From: Marinobacter sp. es.042 | GTDB taxonomy: Bacteria > Pseudomonadota > Gammaproteobacteria > Pseudomonadales > Oleiphilaceae | Length of the DNA: 64,000 nucleotides | Direction of reading: 5' to 3' | Assembly (NCBI RefSeq): GCF_900188315.1 | Contig: NZ_LT897781.1 | Location: 2,976,001-3,040,000 of the forward strand | Shown here: in pieces, positions 38,228-61,900 of the stretch | How positions within the stretch are numbered: the stretch's first letter is position 1 | How the letters are laid out: each line of letters starts with the position of its first letter | Made by a program: the position numbers and the translations under genes | Notes under the pieces: generated by a model | Seen by the model: the letters and a program-made list of their open reading frames with translations, nothing else | Told to the model about the DNA's origin: nothing | Database searches by the model: none

Positions 38228-38300
38228 ATTCGTTTTCATCCTCTTGGGTTGGTGTCTGGTTTCAATTATGGCCCTAGCCTGGTTGGTTTGGGGGCTGGCC

Positions 38301-38385
38301 GGGGGGAAGGAATATTTTCCCTCGGGAAAAACAACTCGCTTCGCTCAGACATCTTTTTCCTGTCGGGAAAATATTCCTTCCCCCC
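38301..38385 (-). repeat. Family-1 hairpin repeat, copy A
   Basis: Arms 38301-38320 (GGGGGGAAGGAATATTTTCC) and 38366-38385 are perfect complements over 20 bp. Inside, GGAAAAA pairs with TTTTTCC around the constant core, which reads GATGTCTGAGCGAAGCGAG on the minus strand. The 36-base inner part is identical to copy D at 61793-61828 although the arms differ. Copy A and copy B fill most of the 390-base gap upstream of the TM2 gene; nothing else is seen there. Confidence 0.85.
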
Positions 38386-38478
38386 GTCCGTCGAACCATT
38401 GTGGCATAGGATTAGAAAAACAAATTAAGAACGAGCAATAACTCTTCTGACGGCATTCTCAGCTGTCAGCAGGGCGTG

Positions 38479-38559
38479 GGGTGGGGCATAAATTTTTCGG
38501 GGAAAAAGATGTCTGAGCGAAGCGAGTTGCTTTTTACCCGAAAAATTTATGCCCCACCC
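38479..38559 (+). repeat. Family-1 hairpin repeat, copy B
   Basis: Arms 38479-38501 and 38537-38559 are perfect complements over 23 bp (GGGTGGGGCATAAATTTTTC and onward). The inner AAAAAG...CTTTTT pair encloses the same core as copy A, on the opposite strand. It ends 58 bases from the stop of the AraC-type gene and may end that transcript. Confidence 0.85.
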
Positions 38560-38617
38560 TGCGACCACGCTCCCAACAAGCGGCCCGAGAGGCCCAAACG
38601 ACCACCCAAGACAAACC

Positions 38618-40887: not shown

Positions 40888-40970
40888 CGGGTGGGGAGGT
40901 CTTTGTGCAGGGAAAATGATGTCTGAGCGCAGCGAGTTGCCTTTTCCCGGAACAAAGACCTCCCCGCCCG
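40888..40970 (+). repeat. Family-1 hairpin repeat, copy C
   Basis: Arms 40888-40906 (CGGGTGGGGAGGTCTTTGT) and 40952-40970 pair over 19 bp with one G-T wobble. GGGAAAA (40910-40916) and TTTTCCC (40942-40948) pair inside. The core reads TGATGTCTGAGCGCAGCGAG, with GCGCAGC where the other copies have GCGAAGC. It lies between two convergent genes, where it could end both transcripts. Confidence 0.85.
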
Positions 40971-61464: not shown

Positions 61465-61533
61465 GTTTTCTTACCTTGTTCTTTGTCGTTTAGTCCGGGG
61501 TTTTTCCCGGGGTTTCTGGTTTGGGTGCCTTTC

Positions 61534-61644
61534 GGGACAGGCCGGTAGGGATTTCAAAAAAACGCCCGTGAACCCATCCATGGGGGGCTTGGTCGCGCCG
61601 TCCATGGCGCTCCACATTTTTTGAAATCCCTACCGGCCTATCCC
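61534..61644 (-). repeat. Family-2 hairpin repeat, second copy
   Basis: Arms 61534-61561 and 61617-61644 pair over 28 bases with one mismatch, enclosing a core that on the minus strand begins GTGGAGCGCCATGGACGGCG. The 55-base core is 44/55 identical and equal in length to the one at 17691-17745. The arms are unrelated to those of the first copy. It is in the leader of the SSS symporter gene. Confidence 0.82.
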
Positions 61645-61760
61645 TTGTTTAACCTCGGTGTTGGCATCCCCGGCAACGGAAATAGGCTCCAACGAACTCT
61701 GACGGACCTTTCTTCTTTCTTTTCTTTCCCACTCAACAACCGAATAGCAAAGCCGTACCC

Positions 61761-61859
61761 GCGGTCTGGGTGGTGAGGTTATTTTCCCGCCAGGAAAAAG
61801 ATGTCTGAGCGAAGCGAGTTGTTTTTCCCAAGGGAAAATAACCTCACCTCCCAGGCCGC
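61761..61859 (+). repeat. Family-1 hairpin repeat, copy D
   Basis: Arms 61766-61788 (CTGGGTGGTGAGGTTATTTT and onward) and 61832-61854 pair over 23 bases with one mismatch. The inner 36 bases (61793-61828) are identical to copy A at 38325-38360 read on the other strand. It ends 42 bases before the stop codon of the radical SAM gene on the minus strand. Confidence 0.85.
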
Positions 61860-61900
61860 CAATGACCAGCCATCAGTCCTGAGAGGCCAAGAACCAAAAC

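Follow-up and report, generated by a model that had tools for sequence, protein, structure and literature searches.

Integron attC sites are folded single strands with extrahelical bases, and their structure is kept while the arm sequence varies. The CRESS-virus and rolling-circle origins combine a conserved loop with a variable stem, and are read by an HUH enzyme. The hairpins described here differ from attC sites in that their constant part is the loop and not the ends, and from the origins in that they are dispersed repeats in bacterial chromosomes. GTAG REPs carry a terminal unpaired GTAG tag in more than 90% of the members of most families and have stems of 5-13 bp and loops of 2-20 bp (PMC3733652), and REPINs are doublets arranged as inverted repeats (PMC3116915). 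Like the REP and REPIN sequences portrayed there, our hairpins are intergenic, multi-copy palindromes that form inverted doublets, are patchy between species, include stem G.T pairs and, in part of the Marinobacter copies, bear a GTAG-like tag (PMC3733652, PMC3116915). Their 19-nt loop is within the GTAG REP range, whereas their stems are far above the 5-13 bp given for GTAG REPs (PMC3733652). Also unlike REP and REPIN, the loop is constant over several phyla, the arms are variable and a general link to RAYT genes is absent. Template switching between inverted-repeat arms is described as homogenising arms and inverting spacers (PMC8604942). Both effects would likewise be predicted for our hairpins, although template switching, as presented there, is a mutation process and not an element family, and it leaves the constant loop unexplained (PMC8604942).

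The window, the whole 64,000-nt stretch of Marinobacter sp. es.042 DNA that was analysed, contains the four copies with a common core and hairpin that had been proposed for it. The 19-nt core GATGTCTGAGCGAAGCGAG occurs three times exactly and once with a single change, against a chance expectation of 0.02 (up to three mismatches). A covariance model, R1, agrees: trained on 25 copy-B orthologues, with the window's own B among them, it finds just the four core loci in the window at E of 1 or less, with 72-99 bits on the core strand vs 37-46 bits on the opposite strand. The features are as follows.

38274 to 38281, plus strand: end tag of copy A, CTAGCCTG (CAGGCTAG in element orientation), read directly
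38296 to 38389, minus strand: hairpin copy A, with the exact loop core at 38335-38353; R1 score 77.4 bits
38390 to 38472, no strand: A-B spacer, with a GGCAT and A-rich part
38473 to 38567, plus strand: hairpin copy B, with the exact loop core at 38508-38526; R1 score 99.1 bits
40883 to 40977, plus strand: hairpin copy C, between convergent genes, with the changed core (GCGCAGC) at 40918-40936; placed by the covariance model
61763 to 61858, plus strand: hairpin copy D, with the exact loop core at 61800-61818; placed by the covariance model

Folded in 159-nt stretches, all four copies give long hairpins of -66.7 to -81.0 kcal/mol. Copies A and B are divergent within 260 bases, head to head as expected, and direct reading extends the identity between copies A and D around the core to 39 bases from the 36 claimed. 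The GGCAT and A-rich part of the A-B spacer are discernible by eye in L074, an orthologue without both hairpins. By eye, a typical copy consists of stem 1, about five extra bases on the 5' side, a stem 2 of 8-9 pairs and the constant loop. The folding strand reads TGTCTGAGCGNAGCGAGTT, in which the constant loop can itself form GC-GNA-GC; GCGNAGC is an unusually stable DNA mini-hairpin. Stems have 19-39 Watson-Crick pairs in Marinobacter (median 33; 153 hairpins) and a median of 30 pairs outside it (63 of 68 non-Marinobacter loci).

The source genome has 20 copies of the core with up to two mismatches. All 20 lie between genes and adjoin the 3' end of at least one gene, nine between convergent genes, 11 between tandem genes and none between divergent ones, a context that depends on gene calls from a simple codon-usage script. 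Their orientation relative to the neighbouring genes varies, and the five neighbouring pairs are all divergent. A tag like CAGGCTA[CG]/CAGGCTAC, with at most one change, lies 52-56 nt past the core in nine copies, and a CAGGCTA[CG] tag of the same type is found on the opposite side in one of the 20. A genus-wide search recovered the core (up to one mismatch) in 57 of 61 Marinobacter genomes and in 0 of 36 genomes from other genera of the same order.

The arms are complementary within each copy and specific to the site, as the original prediction held, but are not wholly unrelated between copies. They have in common a pattern that is G-rich on the outside and T-rich beside the inner stem, and the 5' arms of the 20 own copies have a pairwise likeness of 55.5% vs 43.2% with their letters shuffled. 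Given that shuffling within columns still gives 53.3%, most of this likeness is a shared composition pattern.

To follow the arms through time, we took the A/B locus from 30 genomes with a query that spanned the flanking genes and the pair. Both flanking genes align in all 30 loci; 26 of them hold the A-orientation core and 25 hold copy B. Neither core is found in four (L074, L078, L079 and L081), and arm remnants persist in L078 and L079. The candidates for clean empty insertion sites (L081 and G056) could just as well be palindrome deletions, and we rejected them as clean insertion sites. The alignments hold every B copy (25) and 25 of the 26 A copies; the omitted one, L080, stands alone and is diverged. 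Among B orthologues 96.8% of cells are paired vs 80.9% in shuffled and 53-60% in slid controls; two-sided change is seen in 16 pairs and 104 cells, vs 32 cells when shuffled, and covariation is 0.461 vs 0.175 (shuffled) and 0.066-0.107 (slid). Among A orthologues, where some rows of the alignment are off by one column, 92.4% are paired vs 83.6% shuffled, two-sided change affects 17 pairs and 64 cells, and covariation is 0.279 vs 0.125 shuffled; further pair types in A are not above the shuffles, 167 of 500 of which reach the observed value. Here and elsewhere in the analysis the counts take in related sequences, and p-values are therefore optimistic. The covariation that had been expected of the arms is thus present beyond shuffled and slid controls, and is of a kind that does not separate RNA from DNA.

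The arms diverge much more than the loop, with mean p-distances of 0.28 (5') and 0.27 (3') vs 0.036 for the loop in B, and 0.24 and 0.20 vs 0.046 in A. Over whole hairpins the excess of two-sided over one-sided pairwise differences is modest (1722 vs 1145 in B; 1015 vs 913 in A, with some rows shifted), and L058, L063 and L076 have arm changes without compensation. In the 13 pairs of B stem 1, two-sided differences number 1155 vs 146 one-sided, with GU in 6 of 299 cells. RNase P RNA from the same 25 genomes gives 234 vs 1729 and GU in 339 of 2664 cells, a contrast that is suggestive only, RNase P being slower-evolving and poorly matched.

Over 25 species the arms were passed down vertically with the element, and most Marinobacter copies seem old and vertical. 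The original prediction had derived such arms either from strong selection with compensatory change or from a process that makes an inverted duplicate of local DNA. Covariation is indeed strong, but no fresh inverted duplication is needed at each site, because the arms are inherited and, in Ralstonia, travel with larger units. A copying process is still likely, in the form of template switching from one arm to the other of a hairpin that already exists.

Nine other genomes have copy C at the corresponding position. It has the window orientation in G056, G023 and G103 and is inverted in G009, G101, G112, G134, G124 and G018, that is, in six of the ten compared genomes, the window's included. 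The inverted copies in G009 and G101 have the same arms as the window's. The sequence immediately flanking the hairpin also differs with its orientation, and the change at copy C may have been slightly larger than an inversion of the hairpin. In G009, G134 and G124 there are extra pairs, located where synteny with the window breaks off.

Neighbouring pairs are inverted in 42 of 43 cases in Marinobacter loci and in 10 of 10 in Ralstonia (30 of 50 copies). Outside the 30 Ralstonia loci, the pairs in the 68 non-Marinobacter loci comprise seven divergent, five convergent and three direct ones, and one direct pair (L236) is in the same Ralstonia genome; the doublets have the REPIN orientation in Marinobacter and Ralstonia, and not everywhere. 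The paired hairpins in L180, L205, L218, L222 and L250 (Luteimonas, Stenotrophomonas and Lysobacteraceae) are convergent, not divergent, and those in L180, L205, L218 and L250 sit in longer compound repeats. Among the 30 copies fetched from Ralstonia G163, which has 50, inspection by eye shows units of about 400 bp that recur at different places and take their arms along, as well as various pairings of stem 1 types with stem 2 types.

The family extends beyond Marinobacter. A pattern scan of GTDB contigs turned up the identical 19-nt loop in no fewer than 118 stretches, where our own arithmetic gives a chance expectation of about four over 257 Gb; among the matches listed, 20 are from Marinobacter and 98 from elsewhere by record title. 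Hosts include Proteobacteria, Bacteroidota, Firmicutes, Nitrospirota, desulfo-bacteria, a Thermoanaerobaculia and a Gastranaerophilales MAG, phyla that we took from record descriptions and that misbinning could affect for MAGs. The loop with T at its variable position is also present in a Fusobacteriota plasmid, in a hairpin between annotated genes. Of 75 non-Marinobacter sites taken from the first 80 loci listed, 53 have at least seven contiguous pairs adjoining the loop, vs 3.1% of 5532 control pairings in which the 5' and 3' sides came from different sites. By eye, among the matches listed, a longer constant stretch, GAGGACTGTCTGAGCGAAGCGAGTTCCGCAG, is common to several of the other sites, which belong to Nitrospira, Lachnospiraceae and Methylotenera.

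The family is patchy as well as crossing phyla. The core was found in 13 of 398 sampled Pseudomonadota genomes, three of the 13 being Marinobacter, and in 9 of 212 genera. In 39 genomes picked for holding the core there are 1 to 85 exact copies (control 0), and the 85 belong to one Lachnospiraceae genome. With up to two mismatches this genome has 148 places, vs 39 for a reversed-pattern control that matches so often because the core is nearly a mirror. In 30 of 30 of these copies that were folded, 57-113 pairs enclose the loop. Their arms fall into two types (18 and 10 copies, plus two others) that share a gap-free register, and the positions of TAGAA, CTTA, TGCGT and a 3' TTAGCA are kept in at least 26 of the 30. 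Loop position 11 varies in the same genome (A 12, G 5, C 3 and T 2 in 22 distinct contexts).

Seven stretches of viral contigs matched, with a full hairpin by eye in two (L327 and L328), and a phage search with one Ralstonia copy (161 bases) gave four weak matches. Plasmid searches returned one Marinobacter adhaerens record over 34 bases for the A/B pair, 15 records for the Ralstonia unit (among the matches listed, the far-end bases of the unit) and 20 for a 37-base query. The same 37-base query matches 5 of 5426 E. coli genomes over 19 bases; all of these matches are inside a restriction-modification gene, and we discarded them as chance.

No named family was known to the original prediction, and this still stands. 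At the Rfam 15 gathering threshold the window has no match and 35 further loci, two of them from the source genome, have a single 6S RNA match; at permissive E-values all scores are far below gathering and mostly concern microRNA hairpins. Among the open-licence papers searched, none prints the core or its 15-mers, the matches listed for 14- to 18-mers are unrelated by title, and word searches led to no account of these repeats; subscription literature could describe the family. It looks like an undescribed one.

Which strand folds can be judged from isolated stem mismatches, scored on the core strand as G.T or A.C, which should be equally common if neither strand were constrained. The G.T:A.C ratio is 19:2 in 18 of the 20 own-genome copies, 36:8 in 30 other Marinobacter loci (one site each), 13:4 in the 30 Ralstonia loci and 32:13 in 63 of the 68 non-Marinobacter loci, where the commonest mismatch is A.G (57 vs 32 G.T). 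The core strand is therefore probably the strand that must fold. Tolerance of G.T is no less expected of RNA than of DNA, and its excess does not separate RNA from single-stranded DNA.

Patchiness, high copy number where the element is present and inverted pairing suggest that it is, or once was, mobile. We found no mobilising gene. In the 68 non-Marinobacter loci the biggest cluster of neighbouring genes encodes an ABC-type ATPase (seven loci), and inspection by eye of the first residues revealed no transposase in the 15 largest clusters.

We see about an even chance that these are dispersed, non-autonomous hairpin repeats, spread horizontally across phyla, in which the core strand folds and the loop is read by a putative factor. 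In this scenario the loop and the unpaired bases would be conserved because a trans-acting factor must recognise them, most likely a nuclease or a transposase whose substrate is folded single-stranded DNA. Complementarity would be the sole demand on the arms. Template switching during replication could copy arm onto arm, and the arms would then drift fast with their pairing kept and the loop would flip occasionally, while horizontal spread and loss would give the patchy distribution. Template switching accounts for the two-sided change and the inversion, and no new mechanism is needed for them; because it leaves the loop unaccounted for, recognition would have to keep the loop. A bolder version, tentative at present, is a DNA hairpin replicator that crosses phyla, with a site recognised by its GNA-type loop and fixed bulges, arms that drift via template switching, and movement by a nuclease or recombinase other than Y1/RAYT. 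A loop that is near-invariant across phyla outside genes, on stems that are free to vary, points to a widespread, undescribed recognition system. The family also offers a way to gauge, in nature, the frequency with which palindromes are rewritten by template switching, a process able to imitate the covariation from which RNA structure is inferred.

A structured RNA (a leader, a small RNA or an element of a 3' UTR) with a loop that binds protein or RNA, and with arm covariation due to selected RNA pairing, would explain the conserved unpaired and variable, covarying paired bases, the G.T excess on the core strand and the gene 3' end beside all 20 own copies. We consider it doubtful given that most genomes lack the core (13 of 398 in Pseudomonadota have it) and yet others hold up to 85 exact copies, that orientation to neighbouring genes is inconstant and one orthologous copy is inverted, that GU is scarce in B stem 1 (6 of 299 cells), and that there is no Rfam family at gathering score. 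The same setting at gene 3' ends, nine of the 20 own copies lying between convergent genes and none between divergent ones, would suit bidirectional terminators, protectors of mRNA 3' ends or insulators that are useful to the host. Such a role is improbable: on direct reading the own 3' arms are followed by GCCAGCCCCC-like sequence and not by a T-run, termination does not need a constant 19-nt loop across phyla, copy A has the spacer on one side and, on the other, the start of the next gene on its strand, and 4 of 30 orthologous loci lack both cores. Passive quasi-palindromes, kept perfect through template switching alone without any factor that reads the loop, would show the homogenised arms and the inversions, but the near-invariant loop in orthologues and the same loop in several phyla make this explanation very improbable.

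Classical REPs or REPINs with unusually long stems, moved by a RAYT (Y1) transposase, would fit the inverted doublets, the GTAG-like tag at the end of nine of the 20 own copies and the Y1 gene found no more than a few kb from hairpins in 7 of the 16 Marinobacter stretches retrieved to examine this point. This is nonetheless unlikely. According to the gene tables the seven Y1 genes are one syntenic locus, which L127 has without the core, and the Y1 gene of L121 has its own GTAGGTCGGATTA repeats. No core is present in any of 31 Y1 loci (L021 and L091-L120), and G009, G021 and G024 have 21, 28 and 29 cores but no Y1 match. Of 17 element-rich genomes outside the genus, six are without a Y1 match, and none of 16 Y1 loci in such genomes carries the core. 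The single syntenic locus and the different REP of L121 led us to reject RAYT/REP ownership as a general rule, as did the finding that Y1 genes elsewhere are unlinked or missing. The hairpin family is thus REPIN-like in some ways and yet is not classed as REPIN, because stem length (beyond 5-13 bp) and transposase linkage fail, the tag is partial and the doublet orientation does not hold everywhere. The only Y1 match of the source genome (L021, G000:C1:618217-618543) is without the core and lies among palindromes of the GGGGTCAGAAGAAAAG/GGGGTCAGAAGAAAAGTTCTTCTGACCCC type. At 2200-3800 of L121, the Y1 gene, an alkyltransferase-like stretch and GTAGGTCGGATTAGGC...GCCGTAATCCGAC repeats are found between two constant-loop hairpins.

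Other hairpin types occur near the cores. A second long type, at 61539-61639 of the window, has the arms GGCCGGTAGGGATTTCAAAAAA and TTTTTTGAAATCCCTACCGGCC and a 54-nt loop that starts with CGCCCGTGAACCCATCC. Its arms also differ between species, and it is present at ten places of the genome (up to two mismatches) vs two for a reversed control. In L169-L176 (from G104 and G018), orthologues of window positions 61500-61900 without copy D, there is a third type, with arms that end in CCAAAAC/GTTTTGG and a loop with AGAAGCCACGG. Hairpins of the form TTACTTT...AAAGTAA number seven in the 507,852 bases of the 68 non-Marinobacter loci, and all seven are within 450 nt of a core, a zone that makes up 12.8% of these bases. 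They lie on the 3' side of the core, 40-236 nt away, and concern 9 of 79 sites. Among the open-licence matches listed, 10-mers of this second hairpin led to no paper on bacterial repeats, as judged by title and abstract. The carriers (L181, L197, L210, L216, L218, L244 and L250) belong to three phyla according to record descriptions, and by eye two PLSDB records have similar neighbours of the TTACTTT...AAAGTAA type.
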